DNA from: Candidatus Sumerlaeota bacterium
GTDB taxonomy: Bacteria; Sumerlaeota; Sumerlaeia; JAFGJS01
Reading direction: 5' to 3'
Length of the DNA stretch: 25,508 bases
Assembly (NCBI GenBank): GCA_016928995.1
Contig: JAFGJS010000028.1
Coordinates: forward strand, 1-25,508
In this document: piece by piece, positions 1 through 13,555 of the stretch
How positions within the stretch are numbered: position 1 is the stretch's first letter
Layout: the number at the start of each line of letters is the position of its first letter
Notes under the pieces: model-generated
Seen by the model: the letters and a program-made list of their open reading frames with translations, nothing else
Database searches by the model: none
What the model was told of the DNA's origin: nothing
Translations under genes and position numbers: made by a program

Positions 1-271
1 AAATCTCAAAAGCTAGTGAACTTTTTGGTTTGTTTCAAACTTGTGGTGGGGGGGCGTCTGCTGCGTAGCTGAAGAGAGTTGCGCCCGCGGTTTTGAGCCT
101 GAGAATAGGCCGTTGAGGAGCGCGCCGGTTGAATGGACATCTTCGAGCGTGATTGGCCCGGCCTTCTCACCACGGTGAATGAAATTGTAATTGTATCGTG
201 CTTGAAACCGAATATTCTTGCTCTTGCTTTTGCACTCACTCAAAAAAAAACAGTGTGTGGTCGGGCAGGAA

Positions 272-296
272 GAGCAAGAGCACGAGCAAGAGCAAG
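272..296. repeat. Hexanucleotide tandem repeat, four GAGCAM units
   Basis: Four consecutive hexamers read GAGCAA, GAGCAC, GAGCAA, GAGCAA, followed by a G. A reverse-complement copy of the core, CTTGCTCTTGC, lies about 55 bases upstream, so the two could pair as the arms of an imperfect hairpin. The repeat lies outside any gene I can support. Its short unit makes copy-number change between strains possible. Confidence 0.6.
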
Positions 297-303
297 TGTG
301 ACA

Positions 304-341
304 ATTTCTCACAGTCATAAATATGCTGAGTGGTGAGAAAT
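304..341. repeat. Inverted repeat with 9-bp arms, 20-bp spacer
   Basis: ATTTCTCAC at 304-312 is the exact reverse complement of GTGAGAAAT at 333-341. The spacer of 20 bases is AT-rich. It may be an operator or a leader hairpin for the gene starting at 499, but no promoter hexamers around it are convincing. Confidence 0.4.
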
Positions 342-353
342 GCGGGTTAAAAG

Positions 354-373
354 ATCTTTCACGCGCGAAAGAT
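354..373. repeat. Inverted repeat, 7-bp arms around ACGCGC
   Basis: ATCTTTC at 354-360 is the reverse complement of GAAAGAT at 367-373, with the six-base loop ACGCGC. There is no T-run after it on either strand, so it is not a typical intrinsic terminator. It is a possible leader hairpin upstream of the gene at 499. Confidence 0.35.
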
Positions 374-498
374 GCGTGTGTTTTGATTCTGGGCTTGACC
401 TTTTGCGCGCGTTTCAAAGAATGGACGGCATCTGGCGTTTGGCGCACGGGATAATTTGCGCCGCGCCGATTCGCAAATTTTCAACGATTGGCGGAAGC

Positions 499-1515
499 AT
501 GATGCGCGCATGGATGATGATCTTGCTGTTGCTTTTAGCGGCGGCGCGTCCGGCGGCGGGGCAGTCGGGCGACGCGAATGACGATCAGCGGATTGACGAG
601 CAGGATGTGTCGGCGATCATCGATCATGCCCTGGAACGCAGGAAGGCGCCGGGCCAGCCGGATACAGACGCCGACACGGTGGTCGGCGTGACGGATGCAG
701 TGCGGATCGGGCGCACGCTGGCGGCGCCGGATCGAATGAAAGTATTGCTGCCGGGCGGAGCAGCGCTGGAACTCGTGCGGATCCCGGCCGGACGGTTTAC
801 AATGGGTTCGGCGGGCGACGAGGGCTGGGACATCGGCGTGGAAGGGCCGGAGCATCAAGTGACCTTTAGCGTGGATTCGGCGTTTTATCTGGGCAAGTAC
901 GAAATCACGCAGGCGCAATGGGAGGCGTTGATGGGAGAATGGCCGGGCGATAAGCCGATCAAGAACTTCGGCGCCGGACCGGATTATCCGGCGTACAATA
1001 TATCATGGAACGACGCGCAGAAATTCATCGCAGCGTTGAACGCGCATATACAGCGGACGAATCAGGCGGCGGCGGGATTCCGGCTGCCCAGCGAGGCGGA
1101 GTGGGAATACGCCTGCCGGGCAGGCTCGCGTGAGCGCTTCTGCTTCGGGGATTCGAAACTGGAGCCGACAGCGTCGGATGCCGCCGGCGATCTGGGCGAG
1201 CACGCCTGGTTTGCGGGAAACAATAAATCGCAGAACGGAGCAAAGCCCGTCGGAGCGCGCCGTCCGAATGCATTCGGACTGTATGACATGCACGGGAATG
1301 TGTTTGAGTGGTGCCAGGACACGTTTCAGCCGAATTATGATGAAGCGCCGGCGGATGGATCGGCCTGGGAAGTTGCGGACGCGGAAACGCGAGTGCTGCG
1401 CGGCGGCGCCTGGGCTTCGACGCCAATGCAATGCCGGAGCGTGGTGCGCATCGACTATCCGGCAGACAGCCGTTTGCCATCAGTTGGTTTTCGAGTGGCG
1501 TATGCCGCGAAATGA
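499..1515 (+). CDS. Secreted protein with dockerin-like EF-hand pair and SUMF1/FGE-like domain
   Basis: The 338-residue product begins with a signal peptide: M-M-R-A-W followed by a leucine-rich core and A-A-G near residue 21. I chose 499 because the hydrophobic segment starts there and GGAAG lies just upstream; 502 is equally possible, and the open frame back to 340 shows nothing protein-like. Residues 25-36 fit a dockerin calcium loop (D25, N27, D29, D33, D36). Residues 55-66 give a second, weaker loop (D55, D57, D59, D66). Residues about 85-337 are a SUMF1/formylglycine-generating-enzyme fold, with the hallmarks FTMGS, RLPSEAEWEYACRAG, LYDMHGNVFEWC and RVLRGGAW. The region equivalent to the FGE cysteine pair has Ser307 in place of the first cysteine and keeps Cys312. 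A true sulfatase-activating role is therefore unlikely and the activity is unknown. The next gene encodes cohesin-like domains, a possible partner. Confidence 0.88.
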   Translation: MMRAWMMILLLLLAAARPAAGQSGDANDDQRIDEQDVSAIIDHALERRKAPGQPDTDADTVVGVTDAVRIGRTLAAPDRMKVLLPGGAALELVRIPAGRFTMGSAGDEGWDIGVEGPEHQVTFSVDSAFYLGKYEITQAQWEALMGEWPGDKPIKNFGAGPDYPAYNISWNDAQKFIAALNAHIQRTNQAAAGFRLPSEAEWEYACRAGSRERFCFGDSKLEPTASDAAGDLGEHAWFAGNNKSQNGAKPVGARRPNAFGLYDMHGNVFEWCQDTFQPNYDEAPADGSAWEVADAETRVLRGGAWASTPMQCRSVVRIDYPADSRLPSVGFRVAYAAK

Positions 1516-1604
1516 TAATGAATTGCGAATAGCGAGTGAAATAGGGTTTGAGTACTGTTTGATGCTTGAAATTTCCCCTCATGTCATTTGAGAAACGAGC
1601 GGCG

Positions 1605-3830
1605 ATGAAGCGAATACGACAGAGTTGGAATCTAGTGATGGCGTTGACGCTGGGATGGATCGCGTTGGCGAGCTTCCCGGCTGCTGCGGCGAAGCTGTCG
1701 CTCGGCGAGGATTCCTCCAATCCCGGCGGCGTGATCACGTTGCCGGTGGAATTGCAGATGGACGGGGCGTCTGGCGCAGTCGCCGCGCTATTGCGGTTGG
1801 AATACGATAATGAGGCGCTGGAGTTCGAGTCGGTGCGACCCGGACCGATGATGGCCAGGGCGCATACGCTGGAGGCGAATTGTCCGACCACCGGGCGATT
1901 GAACATTGTCGCGCTTGATCCGTTCGGCGTTACGCCGTTTCAGGGCACGCAAGGGCGTTTGCTCGATGTCCGGTTTCGCGTGCGCGCGGATGCCCAGCAG
2001 GGCGAATATGCCGTGAAATTCACACGGCGCAACATGCTGAGCATTCCGGCGGCTGAATTGACTTCGGTGAATGGAGCGCGCATCACACCGGCTGCGTCGC
2101 CGGGACGCGCGATCGTGCCGATGATTCCGCCGCGAATCACTATCGGCAAGCAGGATGGATTGCGTGGCAAGACGGTCACCTTGCCGGTGGAGTTGAGCGG
2201 AACCAAGGATTTCACGGCGGCGTTGCTGCGGTTTCAGTTTGACGCTGCGGCGTTTGAGAATCCACGCGTGGTCCCAGGGAAACTGATGACTTCGTCGCAT
2301 CTGGCGGACTTTCATGCTCCAGCGCCGGGGCGGCTGAATGCGGCGCTTTATCCGCCCAAGGGCGCGCCGGTGTTCAACGCGCAAAACGGCGTGTTGTGCT
2401 ATTTGAGTCTGGATGTCAAACAGCGCAAATTCTCCGATGGAGAGCTTTTTCCGGTTGGGTTTTACCGCGACGATCCGCGGCAGCGTCCCTTCGCGGAATT
2501 GACCTTGCCCACGGCGGAGCGGTTGTCGCCCAAGGTTGTCGAGGGACAAGTGCGGATTCTGATGCCAGAGGTTGAGTTCGACAAGGAGACGCCGCAGCTG
2601 ACTTTTGGCGGGCGCGACATTGACCAAGGGGCCGGCGCGTCGCTTCCGGTGGTTTTGCGCAACGCGGGATTGGCGCCGGTGGAATTCGCCAGCGTCAAGA
2701 TCGAAGGCGCATCGGCGAAGGATTTTGGCTTCGAAGGCAAAATAGACACGTCGCCGATGGATACGGGCAGCACGCGTTCGTTTGCGGTGACGTTCAATCC
2801 GAAGCGGCGCGGCAAGCGCAATGCAAGGCTGCTGATCGTGACGAACGATGATGATGAAACGACGCTGACCATCCCGCTGAGCGGCGAGGGCTGGGTCGCT
2901 CCGAAAATCGCATTAACCACGGGCAGCCTTGAGCTCAAGGCCGGCGGAGCGCCGAAACGCAGCGCGGTCGGGACAGTCTCGGATACGGAAGACTCCTCGC
3001 CGGCGTTGCGGCTGGCCGTGACAGGACTTCCCGATGGGCTGCGCGCGCAGGCGGAAAATCACGGCGGAACGGCGTATGTCCAGCTCGAGGCGGAAGGCCG
3101 CACCCCGCGCGGAGAACATAAAGCTCGCATTAAAGTAATCGACAGGGACGGGCTGGAATCCTCGGCAAAATTCAACATTCGCGTTTATGGCACGCCGCCG
3201 TCGGTGGATGTCGTGAGCGAGGTGAGCGTTGTCGCGGACGGCACAACGCGTGTGGTGACGCTGGCGCGCGTGTCGGATTTGCAGACTCCGGCGGGGCGCT
3301 TGAAGGCGCGGCTGTCATCATCGCCGAAACCGCTGACGGTCGAGCTCAGCAATGAGAACGGCGAGCTTCGCGCCGTACTGGGCGCGCCGGAAGGAATGCC
3401 AGCGCAAACCTGGGTTGTGAATTTGGAAGTCGAGGATGAAGACGGCGAGACAGCGCGTGCGATTTTGGGTGTGGATGTGAAGAGTCCATCGGCAAAAAAG
3501 ACGCCAGCCGTTTCAAAGAGACCGGCGCAGCAGACCGTTTCGGAGAAAAAACCAACACCGAAGAAAAACGTGGCTCCGGTTCCAACGCCGAAGCCCAAGC
3601 CAGTGGAAAAAAACACGGACGTCTCCACAGCAAAGACGAATCAAGCAACAAAAGAAACGGCAGAGCAGAAAGAAACGGCAAAGCAGAAAGAATCAGTGAA
3701 GCCGGAAAAGGCCGTGAAACCTCAAGTAGCGGATGATAAGAATAAGACCAAGGCTGTGGAAAAGCCTGAACCAACGAAGAAAGAGGATCCGCCGACGACG
3801 AGCGGACGGACATTGCAGGAATCGGATTAA
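1605..3830 (+). CDS. Secreted multidomain protein with two cohesin-like domains, ASH-type domain and Lys/Pro/Thr-rich tail
   Basis: The product is 741 residues from ATG 1605. That start puts K-R-I-R directly before a hydrophobic core ending in A-A-A-A-K near residue 30, a good signal peptide. The frame is open upstream to a TTG at 1566 and an ATG at 1581, neither with a good ribosome site. Residues about 31-160 and 178-318 are two cohesin-like beta-sandwiches. Each has a start like 'GGVITLPVEL', then 'LRLEYDNEALEFESV', and a late 'GRLLDVRFRV' strand. Residues about 322-428 resemble a choice-of-anchor-D/ASH domain (LRNAGLAPVEFASVKI ... TFNPKRRGKRNARL). Residues 430-626 look like two cadherin- or Ig-like modules. 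The last 115 residues (627-741) are a disordered tail rich in K, P, T and E. No sortase motif, membrane helix or other anchor was seen. The stop overlaps the next start. Confidence 0.85.
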   Translation: MKRIRQSWNLVMALTLGWIALASFPAAAAKLSLGEDSSNPGGVITLPVELQMDGASGAVAALLRLEYDNEALEFESVRPGPMMARAHTLEANCPTTGRLNIVALDPFGVTPFQGTQGRLLDVRFRVRADAQQGEYAVKFTRRNMLSIPAAELTSVNGARITPAASPGRAIVPMIPPRITIGKQDGLRGKTVTLPVELSGTKDFTAALLRFQFDAAAFENPRVVPGKLMTSSHLADFHAPAPGRLNAALYPPKGAPVFNAQNGVLCYLSLDVKQRKFSDGELFPVGFYRDDPRQRPFAELTLPTAERLSPKVVEGQVRILMPEVEFDKETPQLTFGGRDIDQGAGASLPVVLRNAGLAPVEFASVKIEGASAKDFGFEGKIDTSPMDTGSTRSFAVTFNPKRRGKRNARLLIVTNDDDETTLTIPLSGEGWVAPKIALTTGSLELKAGGAPKRSAVGTVSDTEDSSPALRLAVTGLPDGLRAQAENHGGTAYVQLEAEGRTPRGEHKARIKVIDRDGLESSAKFNIRVYGTPPSVDVVSEVSVVADGTTRVVTLARVSDLQTPAGRLKARLSSSPKPLTVELSNENGELRAVLGAPEGMPAQTWVVNLEVEDEDGETARAILGVDVKSPSAKKTPAVSKRPAQQTVSEKKPTPKKNVAPVPTPKPKPVEKNTDVSTAKTNQATKETAEQKETAKQKESVKPEKAVKPQVADDKNKTKAVEKPEPTKKEDPPTTSGRTLQESD

Positions 3831-4417
3831 TGGAGCGAATTCAACCGGAACAAATCAAGCTCTCTCGCTGCATGGCTTTGCTGGCGCTGGCGGCGTGCCT
3901 GTGCGGCTGCGCCCAGCCGAACCTGGCGTTGCTCGACGCCGCGCGCACAAGCAACCTGACCGGGATCATGCGGCAATTGGAGCGCGGCGCGAATGTCAAT
4001 TACCGCGAATTGGGCTCCGGCGCGACGGCGCTGCATATGACAGCGTATGGCGGGTACAACCGGGAAACGGATTATTTGATTAAGCACGGCGCGGATGTGA
4101 ACGCGCTGGATACGGATCGCTGGACTCCCTTGCATGCCGCGGCGTATCAAGGGCATGAAGCGGCGGTGCGGATGTTGATTCAAGCCGGGGCCGTTGTGGA
4201 TGCGAGAGCGGAGTCCGGCCACACTCCGCTGCATCTCGCCGCGCAGATGGGACATCTGGACGTGGCGATGCTGCTTATCGGGAGCGGCGCGAACCTGCAG
4301 GCGAAAAATTCGAAGAACTGCACTCCGCTGGATTTGGCGCGGATGGCCGGCCAGCGGGAGATGGTGCGATTGCTGCTCAAGCATGGAGCGCGCAGCGGTG
4401 CGGAGAAACAGGATTAA
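3830..4417 (+). CDS. Ankyrin-repeat lipoprotein
   Basis: The product has 195 residues. After a short basic N-terminus there is a hydrophobic stretch (CMALLALAACLCGC) ending in a lipobox, with Cys27 as the predicted lipidated residue, so the protein should be membrane-anchored on the outer or periplasmic side. The rest is about five ankyrin repeats. Clear units are 'TALHMTAYGGYN', 'TPLHAAAYQGHEAAVRMLI', 'TPLHLAAQMGHLDVAMLL' and 'TPLDLARMAGQREMVRLLL', most preceded by a G-A-(D/N/V) turn. Ankyrin repeats bind proteins, so it is a partner-binding lipoprotein with no catalytic site visible. Its ATG overlaps the TAA of the cohesin-like gene by one base (TAATG), which implies translational coupling. 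An AGGA lies about nine bases upstream, inside the preceding gene. Confidence 0.88.
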   Translation: MERIQPEQIKLSRCMALLALAACLCGCAQPNLALLDAARTSNLTGIMRQLERGANVNYRELGSGATALHMTAYGGYNRETDYLIKHGADVNALDTDRWTPLHAAAYQGHEAAVRMLIQAGAVVDARAESGHTPLHLAAQMGHLDVAMLLIGSGANLQAKNSKNCTPLDLARMAGQREMVRLLLKHGARSGAEKQD

Positions 4418-4425
4418 ACGCCGCT

Positions 4426-4431
4426 TATAAT
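4426..4431 (+). promoter_or_regulatory. Candidate -10 element TATAAT upstream of rpe
   Basis: A perfect TATAAT lies 30 bases upstream of the rpe start, just after the ankyrin gene ends. At 16-18 bases upstream of it there is no good -35 hexamer (GAGAAA at best). The call rests on the -10 match and its position alone. Confidence 0.3.
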
Positions 4432-4461
4432 TTAAATGACAACATTTGGCAAGGCAGGGGC

Positions 4462-5190
4462 ATGGCAAAGACATTAGCACAATTGACGCGAAAGAAACGC
4501 GATGGACGCCGCGAACCGATCATCGCGCCGTCGTTGCTGGCGGCGGATTTTTCCGATTTGAAGCGGGAGATGCGGCTGATCCGGCGGGCGGGATTGCATT
4601 GGCTGCACCTGGATATTATGGACGGCCATTTCGTGCCGAACATCACTTTCGGACCGCCGCTTGTGGCGTCGTTGCGCAAGGCATGCAAGACGCTTTACTT
4701 CGATTGCCACCTGATGGTGTCGAGTCCGCAGGATTTCTGGAAGCCATTCGTGCAGGCTGGTGCGCAGATGATCACGATTCATGAAGAGGCGCATGAAAAC
4801 CTGCCTGTAGCCATCCGCGCACTGAAACGGCTGGGGGTGAACGTGGGCATGTCGATCCGCCCGAAGACCCGTGTGGCCGCGCTGGAGCCGGTTTTGCATA
4901 TGCTGGATCTGGTGCTGGTGATGACTGTGGAGCCGGGTTACGGCGGACAGCAGCTGATCCCGAATACACTGAACAAGGCGCGCCAGTTGAAGCTCTTGCG
5001 GGAAAAAGACCCGAAGCGATACAAGTATCTGATTCAGGTGGACGGCGGGATCAACATCAAGACGGCGTCTTTGGCCGTGGCGGCGGGCGCGGACGTGCTC
5101 GTGGCCGGCTCATCCGTGTTTCGATTGAACAACGGCGACATCATGGCCAATGCTGCGCAGCTGAAGGCGAGCATCGACTCCCAGAAATGA
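4462..5190 (+). CDS. rpe: Ribulose-phosphate 3-epimerase
   Basis: The product interconverts D-ribulose 5-phosphate and D-xylulose 5-phosphate in the non-oxidative pentose phosphate pathway, in the cytoplasm. It is 242 residues long, slightly longer than the usual 220-230 because of a basic N-terminal extension of about 18 residues. The TIM-barrel hallmarks are all present: IAPSLLAADF (21-30), HLDIMDGHFVPN (49-60), DCHLMV (81-86), VEPGYGGQ (156-163), QVDGGI (192-197) and LVAGSSVF near the end. Compared with characterised family members, the metal ligands are expected to be His49, Asp51, His83 and Asp194. GGCAGGGG lies immediately upstream of the ATG as a ribosome site. The start lies 44 bases after the ankyrin lipoprotein. 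Confidence 0.97.
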   Translation: MAKTLAQLTRKKRDGRREPIIAPSLLAADFSDLKREMRLIRRAGLHWLHLDIMDGHFVPNITFGPPLVASLRKACKTLYFDCHLMVSSPQDFWKPFVQAGAQMITIHEEAHENLPVAIRALKRLGVNVGMSIRPKTRVAALEPVLHMLDLVLVMTVEPGYGGQQLIPNTLNKARQLKLLREKDPKRYKYLIQVDGGINIKTASLAVAAGADVLVAGSSVFRLNNGDIMANAAQLKASIDSQK

Positions 5191-5377
5191 TGCGCCGGCC
5201 CATTGCAGGAATCGCGCCGGCCACGCGTTATTTCCAGGCTGCAAGTTTGCCAATCAGTCAAATCGTCGAAAACGTGACCTTAATATCGTATTAGCTGTGA
5301 TTTTTTTCACTGGGCATCAGTGCTGGCAACGTGTTCCCCGGCGCCTTTGAAATATGATTGACTCAAAGTAAAACCTC

Positions 5378-6307
5378 ATGGTAATATTATCGAATCAAGT
5401 GGAAGTGCGCGCTTTTGCGAAGATCAACTTGCTGCTGCGCGTGACTGCAAAACGGCCGGATGGCTTTCATGAAGTCCAGACCGTATTGCATGGCATTAAT
5501 CTAGCAGATGAGCTGTTCTTTGAGGCTTTACCGCCGGATGTCGCATCGCGATTGACGCTGCTGAGGGGAGCGGCGCCGGAGTTTGAGCGCAATCTGATCG
5601 GCCGTGCATGGCGATTACTGCACGAGGAATTCCCTCATGCCGTGCATCCGGTGAATGTGCGGCTGGCCAAGGCGATTCCCAGCGGCGCGGGTTTGGGCGG
5701 CGGCAGCGCGGACGCCGCGGCGACGCTCGTTGCGCTGAACCGGCTGTTTGATCTGCAACTGGATGCGGATGCGCTGGAGCGACGGGCGGCCCAGCTTGGC
5801 TCCGATGTTCCGTTTTTCATTCGCGGCGGCTGCCAGTTTGGCGCCGGTCGCGGAGAGTTGCTGGAGCGCCTGGAGCCATTGGAGCATTTACACGGCGTCG
5901 TGGCGCGGCCCGATGTGGAAATTTCCACGGCGCAGGCTTATGGCGCTTTTACGGCCGGGACGCTGGATCAGCCGCTGAGCAAATGGGAACTCGCCGGACG
6001 CATTGCGGCGATGCGGCGCGGGCTCTACGCCGGAGCAATGGAGAATTCCTTTGAGCGGGCGCTGGGGTTTGACCGCACCGAAGGGCCGTATGCCGCGGTG
6101 CGACGGGTGCGCGCGGAGTTGATCGAAGCGGGATGCGTCCACGCGATGCTCACGGGCAGTGGTTCGGCGGTCTTTGGCGTCGCGCCGGACGCGAACCGGG
6201 CGCAAGAGATTGCGGAACGTATGCGCGAAAGCCAGCCGTTCAGCCAGGCTGTGCGCGGCGTCCGTCAAGGATGGAGGTGGATCGAGGAGGATCCGCAGGT
6301 TAGATGA
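5378..6307 (+). CDS. ispE: 4-diphosphocytidyl-2-C-methyl-D-erythritol kinase
   Basis: IspE phosphorylates CDP-methylerythritol with ATP in the MEP pathway of isoprenoid synthesis. The 309-residue protein has the GHMP-kinase plan. It shows VRAFAKINLLLRV (10-22, catalytic Lys15), the ATP-binding glycine loop PSGAGLGGGSADAAA (101-115), LGSDVPFF (140-147, catalytic Asp143) and the C-terminal LTGSGSAVFG motif. Its length is typical of IspE. No Shine-Dalgarno sequence precedes the ATG; a GTG at 5399 is an alternative but is no better supported. A 187-base gap separates it from rpe, so it may have its own promoter. spoVG follows about 140 bases downstream. The ispE-spoVG neighbourhood is also known from Bacillus, where purR and yabJ lie between them. 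Confidence 0.97.
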   Translation: MVILSNQVEVRAFAKINLLLRVTAKRPDGFHEVQTVLHGINLADELFFEALPPDVASRLTLLRGAAPEFERNLIGRAWRLLHEEFPHAVHPVNVRLAKAIPSGAGLGGGSADAAATLVALNRLFDLQLDADALERRAAQLGSDVPFFIRGGCQFGAGRGELLERLEPLEHLHGVVARPDVEISTAQAYGAFTAGTLDQPLSKWELAGRIAAMRRGLYAGAMENSFERALGFDRTEGPYAAVRRVRAELIEAGCVHAMLTGSGSAVFGVAPDANRAQEIAERMRESQPFSQAVRGVRQGWRWIEEDPQVR

Positions 6308-6431
6308 GCGCCGTACGGCTGCTGAGGAAGAGGATTCAGGGCGGGCGGAGCCGGTCGGCGTGGGAGACGCCGGATTCGGCGATGAGTATCGAGCGAGCGA
6401 TGGAGTCCGCCTGCACACACGAATACATCAA

Positions 6432-6437
6432 GGGAGG
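6432..6437 (+). promoter_or_regulatory. Ribosome binding site fixing the spoVG start
   Basis: GGGAGG ends nine bases before the ATG at 6447. The in-frame ATG at 6438 directly abuts the site and could not use it, so 6447 is preferred. Confidence 0.7.
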
Positions 6438-6446
6438 ATGGATGCA

Positions 6447-6893
6447 ATGCCACCGTTGGAAATCAGCGATGTTCGAGTTCGTCCTTATAATAAAGCGGAT
6501 GACAAATTAAAAGCGTTCGCCACCATCACCTTCAACGACTGTTTCGTGGTTTCGGATTTGAAAGTGATTGAGGGGAACAATGGCTTGTTTGTGGCCATGC
6601 CCAGCCGCAAACGTAAAGACGGCAAGTTTCGCGACGTGGCTCATCCGTTGAACAGCGAAACGCGCCAGATGATCGAGGATGAGGTGCTGGCGCTGTACCG
6701 TCAGGAAATCGAGCGGATGGAAAAGGAAGGCTTGACGCCGTCCTCCGCCGATGATTTCGACGACGAGGACAGCGGCGGGGAGAGCAGTTACTCCGCCAGC
6801 ATGGATGAGTTTGCGCCGATTCAACCTCCTCAGCCGAAATATGACGCGAGTCACGGCAGTGAGAGCGATGATATCGAGAATGAATTGATTTGA
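6447..6893 (+). CDS. spoVG: SpoVG family RNA/DNA-binding regulator with acidic C-terminal extension
   Basis: SpoVG is a small nucleic-acid-binding regulator, first described in sporulating Bacillus but found in many non-sporulating bacteria. Residues 1-85 carry the full family core: EISDVRVRPY, KLKAFATITFNDCFVVSDLKVIEG, LFVAMPSRKRKDGKFRDVAHPLN and the following helix that starts ETRQMIEDEVL. The core alone is about the size of the Bacillus protein. This one adds about 55 residues that are acidic and rich in D, S and E, ending in 'DDIENELI', with no recognisable fold. The start was set by the GGGAGG site at 6432. It lies downstream of ispE in the same direction and ends before a strong terminator, so it is the last gene of that unit. 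Confidence 0.95.
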   Translation: MPPLEISDVRVRPYNKADDKLKAFATITFNDCFVVSDLKVIEGNNGLFVAMPSRKRKDGKFRDVAHPLNSETRQMIEDEVLALYRQEIERMEKEGLTPSSADDFDDEDSGGESSYSASMDEFAPIQPPQPKYDASHGSESDDIENELI

Positions 6894-7203
6894 TCTTAAG
6901 CGGAGCGCGGGGACTGGCCAGAGCGCTTCAATGAACGCCGGTCTCCCTGGAACGTTTGGCGCATAAAACGAAAACGGCCCGGATCCAATGGATCCGGGCC
7001 GTCTTCGTTTGCGGAATGGACGGGCGCGGGAGGTCTGGCGCAAAGCCGTCTCAGCGGGAGGCAGTGCGCAAATCAGAAAGCCTTGCGTCAAACCCCTGTC
7101 GCGCCGCGTCAGGCATCAGACACGGTTTACGTAAGAAAGTTGCAAAAAAAATCCTGAACTTGCCGGTCCTCAGGTGAGGTTTGCGGTTTTCCGCAGTGCG
7201 TTG
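6894..7203. other. Convergent intergenic gap between spoVG and the cytidylate-kinase-like gene
   Basis: I see no gene in these 310 bases. The gap holds the long bidirectional terminator at 6966-7010 and a small hairpin at 7182-7195 (TGCGG, TTTT, CCGCA) that lies just beyond the stop of the minus-strand gene. The remaining sequence, about 7011-7181, shows no motif that I can support. Confidence 0.6.
6966..7010. terminator. Long bidirectional intrinsic terminator
   Basis: ACGGCCCGGATCC (6974-6986) pairs perfectly with GGATCCGGGCCGT (6990-7002) across the loop AAT. After one A-C mismatch, AAACGAA (6966-6972) pairs with TTCGTTT (7004-7010), giving about 20 pairs. The plus strand ends in TTCGTTT. 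The minus strand ends in GTTTTCGTTTTATG, a better U-tract, so it can end both spoVG and the facing minus-strand gene. Confidence 0.9.
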
Positions 7204-7980
7204 TCAGCCTTCGAGCTCTTTGCGGAAGGGATCGAGGCGATGGGTCCACGGCTCGCCTGCTTCGAATTTTTTCAGTTTTGATGCGACGATTGCTAACATC
7301 GCTTCCGCGATTTCATCGGTGGTGAGGTCGTCTTTGCTGAAAACAGCGTCGTAGAGCAAGGGATCGTTGATGTTGCGTTTGAAATGGCGGCGAACCAGTT
7401 GCTCCTGCTCGGATTCGCGCCTTGTCATCTCTGCTTCCGCTTCACGTTCATTCATGTTCAGAAATCGCTGCATATTGTAGAGGCGTTTTCGACGGGAGGC
7501 CAGGATGCGGAAATGAATGCCGTAAGGGAAACTTTGCGTCAGGCAGGCGCCGCCGCGTCCAACGAGGACTACCCGGCCGGCGGCAGCGAAATCCAGCATG
7601 ATTTTAAAGACACGGTTGACCACCAGGTCCTGATGTGTGTGGCCGGTGATGATCTCGCTCATCAGATCGTCGAGGACGGAGCTGTAATTTTCATTGAGCA
7701 GTTCTTCAATGGAGACTTTTAACTTGGGATCTTCGGTCACCCTGCGGCAAAGTTCTTTGTCGCACCATTGCCAGCCGCTCAGCATGGATTTGGGGTTTGG
7801 CGCGCGTTCGTTGAGGAGCTCAACCAGTTTCTGGGCGACGCGGCGGCCTCCAGAGCCGGCCATGCGCGAAATTGTGACGAATGGCATGCGTCCGGATAGC
7901 TGGTGCGAGGTTTCCATGGCGGCTTTTTTATAGCTGAGTGATTTGACCAGCGCCGCAACATTGATACCATGTTGATGCAT
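7204..7980 (-). CDS. Cytidylate kinase-like family protein
   Basis: The 258-residue product belongs to the cytidylate-kinase-like P-loop group, related to but distinct from Cmk. The glycine-rich nucleotide-binding segment is VTISRMAGSGGRRVAQKL (35-52), matching the family pattern ISR-x-x-GSGG-R. Later hallmarks are VVLVGRGGACL, HFRILASRRKR and NEREAEAEMTRRESEQEQLVRRHF, the last resembling the lid segment of these kinases. The C-terminal 'LLYDAVFSKDDLTTDEIAEAML' is also typical. The substrate of the family is unproven; a nucleotide or small-molecule phosphotransfer is likely. About 30 residues precede the P-loop segment. The start is well supported: AGGAGG at 7988-7993 (read on the minus strand) lies seven bases before the ATG. 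The gene is divergent from prfA, with about 240 bases between them. Confidence 0.88.
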   Translation of the reverse strand: MHQHGINVAALVKSLSYKKAAMETSHQLSGRMPFVTISRMAGSGGRRVAQKLVELLNERAPNPKSMLSGWQWCDKELCRRVTEDPKLKVSIEELLNENYSSVLDDLMSEIITGHTHQDLVVNRVFKIMLDFAAAGRVVLVGRGGACLTQSFPYGIHFRILASRRKRLYNMQRFLNMNEREAEAEMTRRESEQEQLVRRHFKRNINDPLLYDAVFSKDDLTTDEIAEAMLAIVASKLKKFEAGEPWTHRLDPFRKELEG

Positions 7981-8045
7981 AACAGCACCTCCTGCGGCGA
8001 TCGTCTGTCATGGAAAGGCGATCCGATGGTTTTCGATCGCAGGCT

Positions 8046-8057
8046 AATAGCGCTATT
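8046..8057. promoter_or_regulatory. 12-bp perfect palindrome AATAGCGCTATT
   Basis: A perfect 12-base palindrome lies in the divergent region, 66 bases upstream of the minus-strand kinase-like start and beside an AT-rich segment (8067-8085) that could hold its -10. The position would suit a dimeric repressor site for that gene. No regulator is encoded nearby. Confidence 0.3.
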
Positions 8058-8120
8058 CGCAATCTTTCCTATTCTATATATAAAATCGGCAAAATGAGCA
8101 AGAAAATTAATTAAAATTGA

Positions 8121-8145
8121 TTCAAGCGGCTTCAAGCATTCAAGC
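8121..8145. repeat. Three TTCAAGC heptamers in the prfA upstream region
   Basis: TTCAAGC occurs at 8121-8127, 8131-8137 and 8139-8145, with an inverted core GCTTGA at 8149-8154. The repeats lie about 20 bases upstream of the candidate prfA -35. They could be binding sites for a regulator, or local slippage in a short AT-rich stretch. Confidence 0.45.
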
Positions 8146-8164
8146 GCAGCTTGATATTTCCTCA

Positions 8165-8193
8165 TTGACCGTTGTCGAGTTTCACATGATGAT
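8165..8193 (+). promoter_or_regulatory. Candidate sigma-70-type promoter for prfA
   Basis: TTGACC (8165-8170) and GATGAT (8188-8193) are separated by 17 bases, matching the consensus hexamers at five and four positions. The predicted transcript would start near 8200, shortly before the GGAGG at 8210-8214. Confidence 0.35.
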
Positions 8194-8222
8194 TGCTTTC
8201 TTTTTATGCGGAGGCGCGGCGC

Positions 8223-9299
8223 GTGAGTGATTTATTGTTGAAATTAAAGGACGTTGAATCCAGCTTCCGGGAAGTTGAGCAGCGGCTCAGCCTGCCGGAG
8301 GTGCTCTCTGATCAGGCGGAGTATCGCAAGGTGGTGAAACGTCACGCCGAGATGGAGCCGGTGGTCAAGGCCTATGCGGAGCTCAGGCAGGCTTACGCCC
8401 AGCGGGACGAGGCGAAGTCGATGCTGGATGACAGCGATTCGGAAGTGGCGGAGATGGCGCGAAGCGAGCTGGAATCGGCCGCGGAAGCCATTGAGCGGCT
8501 GGAGGGGAAGATCCGTCTGATGCTCGTTCCGCTGGATCCCAATGATGACAAGAACATCATCGTGGAGATTCGCGCCGGCACGGGCGGCGATGAAGCCGGA
8601 TTGTTCGCCGGTGATTTGCTGCGGATGTACACTCGCTATGCCGAGTTGCGCGGCTGGAAGTTCGAACTGCTGGGCGAAAATCGCACCGGCGTCGGGGGCT
8701 TCAAGGAGGTTTCGTTGAGCGTATCCGGCGGCATGGTCTACAGCCAGCTGAAGTATGAGAGCGGCACGCATCGTGTGCAGCGAGTGCCGGAGACCGAGGC
8801 GCAGGGCCGCATCCACACGTCGGCCGTGACGGTGGCCGTGCTTCCCGAAGCCGAGGAAGTGGACGTTGCGATCCGCCCGGACGATCTGCGCATCGACACG
8901 TATTGCTCCAGCGGCCCTGGCGGCCAGAGCGTGAACACGACCTATTCCGCGGTGCGCATCACGCATCTGCCGACGAACACCGTGGTTTCAATTCAGGATG
9001 AAAAGTCGCAGATCAAGAACCGCGAGAAGGCGATGAAGGTGCTGCGGGCGCGGCTGTATGAAATGGAGCAGGCCAAGCAGAACGCGGCGATCGCCGCGAC
9101 GCGCAAGGCGATGGTGGGCACCGGCGATCGCAGCCAGCGCATCCGCACGTATAACTTTCCGCAGAACCGCCTGACCGACCATCGCATCGGCTTGACGCTG
9201 CACAGTCTGGATCGCGTGATGGAAGGTGAATTGGGCGATGTGATCGAGGCGCTGGTGCTGCATGATCGCACGGAGCGGCTGCGAGCGTTAGATCTGTAA
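8223..9299 (+). CDS. prfA: Peptide chain release factor 1
   Basis: RF1 reads UAA and UAG stop codons in the ribosomal A site and triggers peptide release. The GTG start at 8223 gives 358 residues, the normal RF1 length, and sits eight bases after GGAGG at 8210-8214. The frame extends to a TTG at 8193, which lacks a site and adds ten atypical residues. The stop-codon recognition tripeptide is P-E-T (residues 189-191, in [19 protein letters not shown]), of the RF1 PxT type rather than the RF2 SPF type. The catalytic GGQ is at 233-235 ([13 protein letters not shown]). The usual partner prmC, which methylates the GGQ glutamine, does not follow; a glycosyltransferase starts 23 bases downstream, probably on the same transcript. 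Confidence 0.97.
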
Positions 9300-9322
9300 C
9301 TCGTTCACAGGGACAACGAGCG

Positions 9323-10288
9323 ATGTATGCAGAGCACAAGATTGGCGTGGTGATTCCTTGTTACAGCGCGGCGGGGACGATTCGCGATGTGATCGCGGGA
9401 TTGCCGGACTATGTGGATGTGATCGTGGCGGTGGATGACGCGAGTCCGGACGGCACGCTGGACGTGTTGCAGTCGATTGATGATTCGCGGCTGATCGTGG
9501 AGCGGCTGAAACGCAATCAGGGCGTGGGCGGAGCGATGGCGGCAGGCTTCCGGCGGATCTTGCAGGAAGACGCGGACATTATCGTGAAGATCGACAGCGA
9601 CGGCCAGATGGATCCTGCGATGATGCTTGATCTCATCGAGCCGGTCGCCGCGGACGCCTGCGAATACGCCAAGGGGAACCGGTTTCGGCATTTCACGGAG
9701 TTGCAGCGCATGCCGTCGGCGCGAAAGCTGGGCAACATCGTGCTGACCTTCTGGACCAAGTTGGCCAGCGGCTATTGGCATGTGTTCGATCCGCAGAACG
9801 GCTATGTGGCGATCCGTTCGGACGTGTTGCGGCGCTTGAATCTGGAGCGGTTGGCGCAACGGCGCTACTTCTTCGAAAATGAAATGCTGATCCAGTTGTA
9901 TTATGAATCAGCGCGGGTGCTGGATTGTCCGATGCCGGCGATATATGAGGGGCAGCTTTCCTCGCTGCACATCCATCAGGTCGTGCGGTATTTCCCGCCT
10001 TTGCTGATCAAAGGTTTTTTCGCGCGGATGTTTTATTGCCATGTGCTGAAGGATTTCTCCGCGATCATTCCGCTTTTTTTGCTGGGCGCGCTGCTGTTTT
10101 GCTGGGGATTCTGCTTTGGCGCCTGGACATGGATTCGTTCATGGCGGACCGGCGTGGTGTCCACGACCGGCACGGTGATGCTTTCCGTGCTGCCGCTGAT
10201 TCTGGGCGTGCAGATGCTGCTGCAGGCGCTGCTGCTTGACGTGATGAACGCGCCGCGGGTGGAATGGCGCAAGCAGCGAAGGCGGTGA
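9323..10288 (+). CDS. Membrane-associated family 2 glycosyltransferase
   Basis: The 321-residue protein has an N-terminal GT-A domain of the GT2 family: VVIPCYSAAGTIRDVI (9-24), VAVDDASPDGTLDVL (35-49) and the D-x-D region VKIDSDGQMDP (88-98), which binds the metal and nucleotide sugar. The layout resembles dolichol-/polyprenyl-phosphate mannose synthases. Two predicted membrane helices close the protein, at about 247-270 and 284-307. It therefore probably moves a sugar onto a polyprenyl phosphate or another lipid-linked acceptor at the cytoplasmic face; donor and acceptor are unknown. It starts 23 bases after prfA. It ends one base from the stop of the facing methyltransferase gene, leaving no room for a terminator between them. 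Confidence 0.9.
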   Translation: MYAEHKIGVVIPCYSAAGTIRDVIAGLPDYVDVIVAVDDASPDGTLDVLQSIDDSRLIVERLKRNQGVGGAMAAGFRRILQEDADIIVKIDSDGQMDPAMMLDLIEPVAADACEYAKGNRFRHFTELQRMPSARKLGNIVLTFWTKLASGYWHVFDPQNGYVAIRSDVLRRLNLERLAQRRYFFENEMLIQLYYESARVLDCPMPAIYEGQLSSLHIHQVVRYFPPLLIKGFFARMFYCHVLKDFSAIIPLFLLGALLFCWGFCFGAWTWIRSWRTGVVSTTGTVMLSVLPLILGVQMLLQALLLDVMNAPRVEWRKQRRR

Positions 10289-10289
10289 T

Positions 10290-11189
10290 TTACGGTTTGC
10301 GCGCGAATTGGATCAGGATGTCGCGTTCGGTGCGGAGCTGATCCAGCAAGGCGCAGAGCGAAAGTCCGGCTCGATACACCGGCGCGGCGAACGCTGAACC
10401 CGAGCTGCCAGTGGCGCGGATGTATCGGATGCGATGCGGGATCGATGCGAGCGTGACGATCGGCTCGAAGTCCGTCTGCAAATTTTCAAATCCTGCGCGT
10501 TCCAGCGCCTGCCGCAGTTGTCGCGGCTCGAAATACCAGACATGCGGGTAGGGGAAGTCCAACTGCCATAAGCGCCACAGCGGCAGACTGGCCAGGCCGC
10601 ACGTGGCTTTGTACAGCAGCGTGGCGGCGCGATAGATGCCGCCGTTGCGGTTGGGAACTTTGAGCACTAAAAGTCCGCCGGGCCGTAAAATTTTATTAAT
10701 TTCACGCAGCGCGTCATGCCCATGCGGCAGGTGCTCCAGCACGTCCATCATCGCCACAACGTCGAATTGCTCGCCGGGGAAATGCGCCGCGGGAAATTCG
10801 CCGTGCAAGAGCTGATGCTTTCCTGCGCGCGCGGTTTCTATGGCGATTTCGGAAGGCTCGATGCCGAATGTTTGCCATCCGCGTTCGGCTGCGACGTCGA
10901 GAAACCAGCCGAAGGAACAGCCGATGTCCAGCATGCGGCCTTTATTTGTGATGTGTTTTTCGATGACATCCAGCAGGCGGCGGCTGGATTGGTGGCGGAT
11001 TTGCTCCATTGCAGCATAATAAGCCTCAAGATCGAGTCCGGCGAATTCATCTTCCGTGCGATCCACATGATGCGCGGAGGCGTCATACGCCCATAATCCG
11101 CATGTATCGCACTTCAGCAGCGTAAGTGCGCGCAGTTTTCCCGCGATGAAAAATTTTTCATCGTTGCAGGCGATGCATCGCAGGCTCAT
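10290..11189 (-). CDS. Class I SAM-dependent methyltransferase with N-terminal zinc-ribbon-like motif
   Basis: The 299-residue product is a Methyltransf_23-type enzyme. Four cysteines at 5, 8, 27 and 30 (two CxxC pairs) form a zinc-ribbon-like head. The SAM-binding motif I is MLDIGCSFGWFLDVAAERG (86-104), followed by TFGIEPSEIAIETAR and the VVAMMDVLEHLPHG segment (motif IV region). LRPGGLLVLKVPN completes the core. Such proteins often sit in surface-polysaccharide clusters and methylate sugars or lipid-linked intermediates, but the substrate here cannot be read from sequence. AAGGAG lies about eight bases before the ATG. It follows the large membrane protein by 20 bases on the same strand, indicating an operon. 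Confidence 0.9.
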   Translation of the reverse strand: MSLRCIACNDEKFFIAGKLRALTLLKCDTCGLWAYDASAHHVDRTEDEFAGLDLEAYYAAMEQIRHQSSRRLLDVIEKHITNKGRMLDIGCSFGWFLDVAAERGWQTFGIEPSEIAIETARAGKHQLLHGEFPAAHFPGEQFDVVAMMDVLEHLPHGHDALREINKILRPGGLLVLKVPNRNGGIYRAATLLYKATCGLASLPLWRLWQLDFPYPHVWYFEPRQLRQALERAGFENLQTDFEPIVTLASIPHRIRYIRATGSSGSAFAAPVYRAGLSLCALLDQLRTERDILIQFARKP

Positions 11190-11209
11190 CCGATAATCTC
11201 CTTAAGGTT

Positions 11210-13555
11210 TTATTCCATCAAAGCGAACCAATCGATGGCGATTCCCAAAATGCGATTATCGCCTGGGAAATGGTTCTTCTCCGCGGCCGGCGCATCGATG
11301 TCGATTCGATACTCCGCCGCACTTCGATCCGCCGGCAGAGGTATGGTGATTTCCGCCCACTGAGAGCTGTGGGGGAATTTCTGCGTGGTCTGTTCCCCGT
11401 TGATCGTGATGGTGTAGTCGCGCGTGGCCCAAAAGCCGATGGCGATATGATGATAGTCCGGTCCGGGATTGGGCAGGACCAGCGACGCGTGTTTGCAAGT
11501 CCAGCGATAATTGACGCTGGTGTCGCGTTCATATTGCGGAGCGTGGAAGCCTTCCGGGCGCCAGATCCCGTCTCCGTCCGAGCCGATGTCGAACGTGATG
11601 ATCTTTTGATATTCCTCAACGTTTTCCGGCGTGTACTTATAGATCGACGCGTGGTTGGAATGGAATACTCGCTCGAACCAGGGCGAAATATCGAAGGTTG
11701 TCGCGCTGATTTGTTGTGGGCGCATTGCCGCGGGCCAGGACGGTAGATAGGCGTATCGAATATTGAAGCGCTCCATGATTGCTTTGGCGCGTTCATCCAC
11801 GCCCAGCGTGATGAAATGGGAACGGAGGTAGTGATAGCCGGAGGTGAAGTCCGGCTGCGTGGAGGCATAGCCCATAAAATAATTCGAGGTCATGCAGTTC
11901 GTGTAAAACAGCAGCCAGCAGCCATTGTCGCTGTGGTAATTGGTCAGCACGGTGGAGCCTGGTGGTGCGATTGTGTTTAATGCGCGCATGCACATCAAGT
12001 CGCTGTCGGTCCAGGGAGTGTAGGCTTTGCGATATTGTCCGATTCGTTCGAGGGAGCGGGTTGAATTGAAATAAAACGCTCCTCCGGCTGCGATGAACAG
12101 CAGGATGTACGCGCTGAAGGCCGGCGCGCGGGTGATGCGCTGGAGCCAAAACGGCCCGGCGGCCGCCAGCACGGACAAGCTGATCAGCCAGAGAAAGATC
12201 AGCCGGTAGGCTGTGGGCCAGGGATGGATTTTAACCAGCAAGGGCTGCAGTGGTTCGAACGCGGTCAGGAGGATTATGTTCGTCACGATCAGATGGAAAG
12301 CCAGGAATAACCTGCATGGCTTGAACGTGAAGATGGAAAAAAAGCCCAGCACAGCGGCTGCTGGCAGGAAATAGTTAGAGTTGAAACCGAATGGATGGCT
12401 CCAGAATAGTATCGAAAAACTTTCCCATGTGCGCGGCGCCCAGTTGACGATTTCGTGCAGTTTGCTTTCCGCCGAAACATAGACGCCCGCATGGCTGATG
12501 GCGAGGATGGAGGGCGCCAGGGGGGAGATCAGCAGAAGCAGGACGACGGCGGAGGCCGTTGTCAACGCGGCCAGTTTCCATTTTGAGGAATTGAGCCAGG
12601 CGCGGAAAGTCAGCAGTATGGCGGGACCGAGCAGCATGATCGTGAGGATGTCGCTGGAGTGCATGTAGAAGGTTGCCGCGCATTGGATGCAAAATAAAAT
12701 CCAGTATCGCCATGACGCCAGACGGGACGCCATGGCCAGCGCGGTCAGGGCGCCCAGGACGAACATCTCCCCAATTGCGACACACCACCCGCCGTTGAAG
12801 AAGGTGTCGTAGGGGGAGAAATAACAACAGGCGAAAATCCCCGCCCAGAATGCGATTGCGCGATTCACGCCGCAGCTGAGCGCGAGGAAAACGATCCACA
12901 GCGGAATCAGGGAGATGTACAGCACGGCGCTCTGCATCATGACGATCGGGATCGGCGCATGCGTCAGGCGATGTTCCAGGGCGAGCATGGCGTGGAAGGA
13001 AAAAGGATAAAATGACGGGAGCTGGACGGTTTGATTTTTCACGATGTAATAGGTCCATTCCGCGTGATTAACCGCGTCATCGGTATGCGATCCGAAAAGC
13101 TGTCCGAAGACGGCGATTTCCAGCACGATCAGCATCGGCAGCGCGGCGAGCGAGAATCGCCATCCCAGGCGGCTGTGCTGATGTTCGAATTCGTGATCCG
13201 CTTCGGACTCGCTGGTTGAAACCACAGCATCCACGTCCGGTTTTTTATCCGCCGGAGTTGACGCCGCATCCCGGCGTTTTTTCGTGACGAGCATGGCGAT
13301 GCAGATGGCGGCGACAGGCGCGGACATGATCCAGTATGCAGTCAGATTGAAGGGCGCCTGAATCAAAGCCAGGGCCTGCCCGAGAAGCGAAATGAGCAGC
13401 ACGTTCAGCGGCACGGTCCACAGGCATTGTTCCAACACCGGCCGTTTGGGAAGGATGAGGCGAATGATGAAGAAGCCCGGCAGGAAATTTAGCGTGATCC
13501 AGCTGATCAGGATTTGCAATGCGATCAGGGCATGTTGAGCGTTGGTTTCGGGCAT
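11210..13555 (-). CDS. Large polytopic membrane protein, GT-C/DUF6541-like, with C-terminal beta-domain
   Basis: The product is 781 residues from the ATG at 13555, where 'MPETNAQHALIAL' leads directly into the first membrane helix. The frame continues upstream to 13642 but adds a polar, arginine-rich stretch with no ribosome site. About 12-14 hydrophobic helices fill residues 5-510. The first periplasmic loop holds 'HTDDAVNHAEW' and 'YPFSFHAMLALEHRL', which recall the acidic-loop and aromatic-H-A-L pattern of GT-C-like DUF6541 proteins. The soluble C-terminal part (about 520-781) ends in a probable beta-sandwich: YHHIAIGFWATRDYTITINGEQ, then PLPADRSAAEYRIDIDAP. A membrane glycosyltransferase using a lipid-linked sugar is the best guess, in keeping with the adjacent methyltransferase and GT2 genes. 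The exact family is uncertain. Confidence 0.75.
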   Translation of the reverse strand: MPETNAQHALIALQILISWITLNFLPGFFIIRLILPKRPVLEQCLWTVPLNVLLISLLGQALALIQAPFNLTAYWIMSAPVAAICIAMLVTKKRRDAASTPADKKPDVDAVVSTSESEADHEFEHQHSRLGWRFSLAALPMLIVLEIAVFGQLFGSHTDDAVNHAEWTYYIVKNQTVQLPSFYPFSFHAMLALEHRLTHAPIPIVMMQSAVLYISLIPLWIVFLALSCGVNRAIAFWAGIFACCYFSPYDTFFNGGWCVAIGEMFVLGALTALAMASRLASWRYWILFCIQCAATFYMHSSDILTIMLLGPAILLTFRAWLNSSKWKLAALTTASAVVLLLLISPLAPSILAISHAGVYVSAESKLHEIVNWAPRTWESFSILFWSHPFGFNSNYFLPAAAVLGFFSIFTFKPCRLFLAFHLIVTNIILLTAFEPLQPLLVKIHPWPTAYRLIFLWLISLSVLAAAGPFWLQRITRAPAFSAYILLFIAAGGAFYFNSTRSLERIGQYRKAYTPWTDSDLMCMRALNTIAPPGSTVLTNYHSDNGCWLLFYTNCMTSNYFMGYASTQPDFTSGYHYLRSHFITLGVDERAKAIMERFNIRYAYLPSWPAAMRPQQISATTFDISPWFERVFHSNHASIYKYTPENVEEYQKIITFDIGSDGDGIWRPEGFHAPQYERDTSVNYRWTCKHASLVLPNPGPDYHHIAIGFWATRDYTITINGEQTTQKFPHSSQWAEITIPLPADRSAAEYRIDIDAPAAEKNHFPGDNRILGIAIDWFALME

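Follow-up and report, generated by a model that had tools for sequence, protein, structure and literature searches.

Two adjacent genes close to one end of the window, by which is meant the whole 25,508-base contig G000:C70 from the 4.55 Mb draft genome of a Candidatus Sumerlaeota bacterium, are interpreted here as encoding a private cohesin-dockerin pair that is independent of any cellulosome. The first encodes a protein in which a dockerin-like module precedes a domain with the formylglycine-generating enzyme (FGE) fold; the second encodes a protein with two cohesins, which would hold the docked first protein in place. The probability of this interpretation is put at roughly 62%. The features on which it depends are the following.

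502-1515, + strand: gene 1, 337 aa, with signal peptide, N-terminal dockerin and FGE-sulfatase (SUMF1-like, C-type-lectin fold) domain (Pfam; AlphaFold2 (AF2) model; signal peptide by eye)
571-606, + strand: dockerin calcium loop 1, DANDDQRIDEQD (pattern search; Pfam Dockerin_1 at 15 bits; homologues above the cut-off; profile against PDB dockerins)
661-696, + strand: dockerin calcium loop 2, DTDADTVVGVTD (pattern search; alignment)
769-1500, + strand: FGE-sulfatase domain, with Ser306 (1417-1419) at the position of the first catalytic Cys and Cys311 (1432-1434) at that of the second (Pfam; alignment to human FGE; AF2 model)
1605-3830, + strand: gene 2, with signal peptide, two cohesins, a choice-of-anchor-D/ASH-like Ig domain, further beta domains and a charged low-complexity tail (Pfam; sequence)
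1674-2129, + strand: cohesin 1, of a dockerin-linked subtype (Pfam; subtype profile and leave-out test)
2124-2567, + strand: cohesin 2, of the same subtype and 32% identical to cohesin 1 (Pfam; subtype profile)

The evidence for pairing comes from the distribution of this cohesin subtype. When each member was left out of the subtype profile in turn, with the two window domains removed together, the omitted domains scored 77-126 bits, as against 39 bits or less for any other cohesin of the phylum, and the seven subtype domains form a single clade in the tree (support 93/82). Among the 386 genomes searched, the subtype is found at full strength in only six, all from this phylum (G000, G030, G016, G014, G006 and G039), with G039 belonging to a different class from the other five. 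A gene adjoining the subtype cohesin encodes a dockerin in four of the six, compared with an expectation of 0.033 under uniform placement (p = 5e-8); leaving aside the window, which prompted the search, the figure is three of five. Similarly, half of the six dockerin-FGE genes have a cohesin neighbour (Fisher p = 1.8e-4), or three of seven after the addition of the later-found G002:C173, while this is true of none of the 82 FGE genes that lack a dockerin. These figures mean that the pairing is real and selected, rather than the product of chance.

Three of these four pairs have a dockerin-FGE neighbour and the other an FG-GAP/C1-peptidase-like neighbour. The gene next to the subtype cohesin in G030 (contig C95) combines a dockerin with three FGE domains; in G039 (C103), the dockerin-FGE gene lies downstream of the cohesin gene at a distance of 18 bases; and in G006 (C78, L085 2639-7999), the subtype cohesin directly precedes a large FG-GAP protein that contains an internal dockerin and matches C1 peptidases weakly. 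The dockerin gene comes first in the window, while the cohesin gene comes first in G030, G039 and G006, hence inheritance of a single arrangement does not by itself account for the adjacency. The two exceptions are G014, in which the cohesin gene runs off the contig end, and G016, in which the sole dockerin match in the genome (E up to 0.01) is a dockerin-FGE protein and the subtype cohesin lies on another contig. All of the compared genomes are drafts, in which some neighbours are lost beyond contig ends; for gene 1 this applies to the whole of the upstream side. At 80 FGE loci of other phyla, retrieved with a dockerin-FGE alignment, no over-threshold dockerin was present in the FGE protein and no cohesin was nearby, and a search of the same contig collection with the gene 2 cohesin protein recovered no relatives. 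The proposal in the earlier note on this DNA that the neighbouring proteins form a cohesin-dockerin pair has therefore gained strong indirect support, in that the arrangement recurs across two classes, in both gene orders and once with a different cargo; the docking itself, and the cell-surface site that the note envisaged, we infer.

The cohesins are readily recognised. Gene 2, the reading frame of which is open from TTG 1566, passes the cut-off of the Pfam cohesin family PF00963 in two stretches (70.1 bits, E = 2.8e-19; 48.5 and 28.1 bits for the individual domains), in agreement with the two cohesin-like domains described in the earlier note. A profile built from the window cohesins and their nearest relatives matches the cohesin structures 1g1k (1.1e-12) and 2vn5 at 1e-12.

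The identity of the dockerin depends more heavily on comparison with relatives. The open reading frame of gene 1 spans 340-1515, with ATG 502 the likely start (499 being the alternative) and the origin of the residue numbering used here. A hydrophobic signal peptide at the N-terminus, judged by eye as were that of gene 2 and the lipobox of the gene downstream, is followed by two calcium loops, which a pattern search defined as D24-A-N26-D-D28-Q-R-I-D32-E-Q-D35 and D54-T-D56-A-D58-T-V-V-G-V-T-D65. These are the residues previously noted, offset because counting had then begun at 499. Asp or Asn ligands are present at loop positions 1, 3, 5 and 12 in both DANDDQRIDEQD and DTDADTVVGVTD. The nearest FGE protein found, from G016 (48% identity), has a canonical dockerin, GDVNGDGSVNYWD...ADANGDGKISLAD, scoring 48.5 bits, and the dockerin-FGE protein of G030 scores 44.9 bits; the dockerins of the G016, G030, G012, G001 and G039 homologues all exceed the Pfam Dockerin_1 (PF00404) cut-off of 22.9 bits. 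The earlier note had advised a fold check on this region: a profile of seven modules from the phylum, with the window copy as its first row, matches solved type I dockerins at between 1e-11 and 2e-10 (4uyp_B, 1.2e-11; 1ohz_B, 2.4e-10), and also a dockerin-like serine protease fragment, 8x39 (6.7e-16). Judged from these alignments, the window module is dockerin-like and of dockerin lineage; it is the canonical dockerins of the homologues that settle the call, since the window copy alone would be doubtful.

Several observations weigh against the two proteins being dedicated partners. The window module scores only 15 to 16.9 bits against Dockerin_1 (E = 0.028), below the cut-off, and it is degenerate, with no Gly at loop position 6 and with DTDADTVVGVTD as its second loop. 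The dockerin part of the AF2 model of gene 1 has low confidence, and its helices are unclear, with just one, at residues 33-47, appearing at low confidence; a model of the double cohesin from single sequence was uninformative (predicted local distance difference test score, pLDDT, of 34.9). Both G001 and G002 have dockerin-FGE genes and only sub-cut-off cohesin matches, which implies that an FGE-linked dockerin is not always partnered by such a cohesin. The FGE tree requires five changes of the dockerin label, or no fewer than four, implying that dockerins have been gained and lost. Finally, the genome contains more cohesins, on C118 and C31, and more dockerin-like modules, so that partners could be crossed. 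A mirror-tree argument was also considered and is not used as main evidence, as the two trees agree only in part: in the cohesin tree G030 and G039 are sisters and the window pairs with G016, while the FGE tree likewise groups G030 with G039 but places the window with G012, plus dockerin-less FGEs.

Some of these points would also suit an explanation in which the calcium loops are a calcium-stabilised spacer following the signal peptide, with no cohesin partner and with the adjacency being incidental. The sub-threshold Pfam score, the lack of a convincing cohesin in G001 and G002, and the abundance in this genome of half-dockerin proteins with a single loop are all in keeping with such a spacer. 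It is nevertheless considered unlikely, as the adjacency of subtype cohesin and dockerin is about 100 times the expectation and holds through changes in both gene order and cargo, and as dockerin-less FGE genes never adjoin cohesins.

A search of the whole genome for further dockerins, as the earlier note had recommended, found such modules on C1, C11 and C113 among others. Those that could be named using Pfam are subtilase, Lcl_C, LVIVD and FG-GAP proteins; the others appear beta-helix-like by eye and gave no family match where scanned. No dockerin-bearing glycosidase was found among the dockerin-like proteins of the genome, and the GH42 beta-galactosidase at 21947-24007, 18 kb away, is without a dockerin. 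Neither dockerin-bearing carbohydrate-active enzymes nor a scaffoldin with a carbohydrate-binding module (CBM) was found in the genome, in agreement with the original description of the gene pair as lying outside a cellulosome context and lacking a linked glycosidase. As a separate observation, this genome encodes five paralogous secreted repeat proteins (L097, L098, L099, L100 and L101), beta-helix-like by eye, which each have a single dockerin-type loop and share the near-identical C-terminal stretch RRPFPxExYRxRYGKYAEAxWKLxNTxHPGxGPIIxDLREYE.

The additional modules raise the alternative of a small shared scaffold, in which the gene 1 dockerin binds the C118 cohesin or the divergent C31 cohesin pair, while protein 2 takes up other dockerin proteins, for instance the subtilase of C1 or the Lcl_C protein of C11. 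The genome's own cohesins on C118 and C31 and its dockerins on C1, C11 and C113 would provide the components, and cohesin 2 of the window could be available for another cargo. Set against this, it is this very cohesin subtype that recurrently adjoins one dockerin gene, and the C31 cohesin is a long-branch, core-type protein present across the phylum. Such crossing of partners therefore seems rather improbable, and the dedicated pair remains the preferred interpretation.

What the pair would display is best judged from the cargo domain. Gene 1 matches the Pfam FGE-sulfatase family at E = 7.7e-54, and the FGE part of its AF2 model is confident, with much of it above a pLDDT of 90. The closest match by both sequence (2e-32) and fold (TM 0.81) is PvdO (5hha); the Treponema variable protein TvpA (2y3c) is the second-best PDB match and nearly as close, and FGEs rank behind both, by sequence and by fold. 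Folds of this FGE-type C-type-lectin kind are described as scaffolds for ligand binding in general, with enzymes also among them (PMC5006420). One possibility is that protein 1 is a docked PvdO-type oxidoreductase acting on a small molecule, i.e. a tethered enzyme and not a receptor. The ranking of PvdO favours this, yet the binding protein TvpA shares this fold and is almost as similar, the three domain repeats on one G030 chain would suit a binding array as well, and there are no biosynthetic neighbours. The oxidoreductase is the main alternative, with a low likelihood, and ligand binding by a C-type-lectin-like module is favoured.

A role as a true FGE, anchored by the cohesin protein and activating exported sulfatases, has the Pfam match and the similarity of fold to FGEs in its favour, and is very unlikely. 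The equivalents of human FGE Cys336 and Cys341 in gene 1 are Ser306 and Cys311, so that the first of the copper-binding catalytic cysteines is missing, as it is from all five aligned dockerin-FGE proteins, and PvdO and TvpA are closer relatives than the FGEs. The sole sulfatase-family protein detected in the genome (L281, G000:C156:46618-47670) has DAPAR, with Asp for Cys, where CxPxR is needed, and no client sulfatase with a CxPxR motif was found in this metagenome-assembled genome, which is about 92% complete. The missing cysteine and the DAPAR motif together make a sulfatase-activating role unlikely, and this candidate was rejected; the domain probably acts as a C-type-lectin-like binding module, or else as a PvdO-like enzyme. 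A role for protein 1 as the variable protein of a diversity-generating retroelement (DGR), like that of TvpA, its second-best PDB match, can be given hardly any credence: window positions 1-12000 contain no direct repeat as long as 30 bases, and those window proteins that were scanned gave no reverse transcriptase family match, no wider search having been made and the upstream contig end being unread.

The route by which protein 2 might be retained at the envelope is suggested by its remaining domains and by the gene downstream.

2553-2858, + strand: choice-of-anchor-D/ASH-HYDIN-like Ig domain (NF012200, 2.6e-10, 40.8 of the 45 bits required; Pfam relatives below their cut-off)
3484-3827, + strand: Lys/Glu/Pro-rich low-complexity C-terminal tail, a possible wall or envelope contact (sequence only)
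3830-4417, + strand: ankyrin-repeat protein with a lipobox-like N-terminus, ACLCG/C, the stroke marking the division before the final Cys (Pfam Ank, 7.4e-33; sequence)

Protein 2 has a signal peptide and no recognised anchor. The stop codon of its gene overlaps the ATG of the ankyrin-repeat gene in the sequence TAATG (3828-3832), which suggests translational coupling; production of the two proteins may thus be linked, and the lipoprotein is a possible membrane contact for the cohesin protein. The ankyrin-repeat gene is followed by one for ribulose-phosphate 3-epimerase. In the mechanism proposed for the dedicated pair, the sequence of protein 1 would have it exported and its dockerin folded by calcium; the calcium-bound, type I-like dockerin would then plug into either cohesin of protein 2, which would be retained at the envelope by its Ig-like domain and charged tail, perhaps with help from the co-encoded lipoprotein. 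As there are two cohesins, each protein 2 molecule could accommodate as many as two copies of protein 1. A more specific version of this, in which the two-gene cassette, recurrent in two classes, employs a dedicated cohesin subtype to display FGE/C-type-lectin-fold or other cargo at the envelope for one-to-one display or adhesion, and not as a degradation complex, is plausible and falls a little short of even odds.

Other arrangements of these modules were seen in the phylum. A further G039 protein carries an FGE domain and a cohesin-dockerin-cohesin unit in one chain. Such units, with short linkers, are found in at least nine genomes (for instance L110 3-4163, L112 7262-11743, L114 1966-3261, L117 7962-11495, L109 2-1132, L129 1-2409, L131 7134-10535, L128 5213-9169 and L163 7525-9087), and are possibly self-docking modules or chain-forming adaptors. 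Large multi-cohesin proteins of about 1800-1940 aa, identified with Pfam or a local hidden Markov model (L145 in G032:C29, L166 in G007:C3 and L170 in G036:C64), adjoin a cohesin-like protein of roughly 200 aa and a dockerin protein; these loci are scaffoldin-like clusters, in a group not known for cellulosomes. Many proteins of the phylum, including short cohesin proteins, end in a Trp tail (DDWILYQ, AEWMLY, ITDWPTY, GVEPWMKY or SAYWHLY; loci L080, L081, L085, L109, L110, L114, L117, L142, L145, L170 and others). The pattern W-x-[LIMFVYK]-[YFLHQ] is found at the C-terminus of 22 of 757 open reading frames, whereas shifted pseudo-ends gave about 2.3 on average, making the tail a candidate C-terminal sorting signal. 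The end of the L281 sulfatase-family protein, RHWEILE, is near to this pattern.

The window pair shares with cellulosomal type I pairs (cohesin 1g1k, dockerin 1ohz_B) the profile matches of both modules, the duplicated calcium loops and a holder with more than one cohesin. It differs from them in having no CBM, no dockerin-bearing glycosidase that could be found, an N-terminal dockerin, FGE-like cargo and a two-gene cassette. Bacteria and archaea are both known to have cohesins and dockerins outside cellulosomes, and binding has been demonstrated for archaeal pairs (PMC9012536 and references there). A non-cellulosomal cohesin-dockerin system has been described in Cloacimonadota (PMC8542988), and others in anaerobic methanotrophic (ANME) archaea and Archaeoglobus (PMC9012536, PMC8542988; Peer et al. 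2009 as cited there). Like the window pair, these occur in organisms without known cellulosomes, have non-cellulase cargo and have been proposed to tether proteins at the surface; they are, by contrast, multi-protein sets or scaffoldin-like, whereas in the window one cohesin gene lies beside one dockerin gene with FGE-like cargo. The earlier note's description of an unusual complex is hence fair with respect to the FGE cargo, but not with respect to a cohesin-dockerin system outside cellulosomes (PMC9012536, PMC8542988). A full-text literature search found no description of dockerins on FGE-like proteins. The cargo domain is like PvdO, TvpA, GldK/PorK and human FGE in fold and sequence, and TvpA likewise has no first catalytic Cys but retains the second. 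Gene 1 is distinguished from PvdO, TvpA, GldK/PorK and human FGE by its dockerin, and the window shows no sign of a DGR, pyoverdine or type IX secretion system context. What looks new is thus the private two-gene cassette, with its N-terminal dockerin and FGE-like cargo, the modules themselves being known.

As the pairing recurs in distant relatives, it suggests that the plug and socket of the cellulosome have been reused, without any cellulose-degrading enzyme, to hold one protein in place. This bears on the open question of why cohesins and dockerins exist in many microbes without known cellulosomes. A minimal pair of one cargo and one holder, recurring in distant relatives and easy to express and test, would reveal what cohesin and dockerin do outside cellulosome building, and would assign a function to a portion of the numerous SUMF1-like proteins of bacteria that are unable to be formylglycine-generating enzymes.

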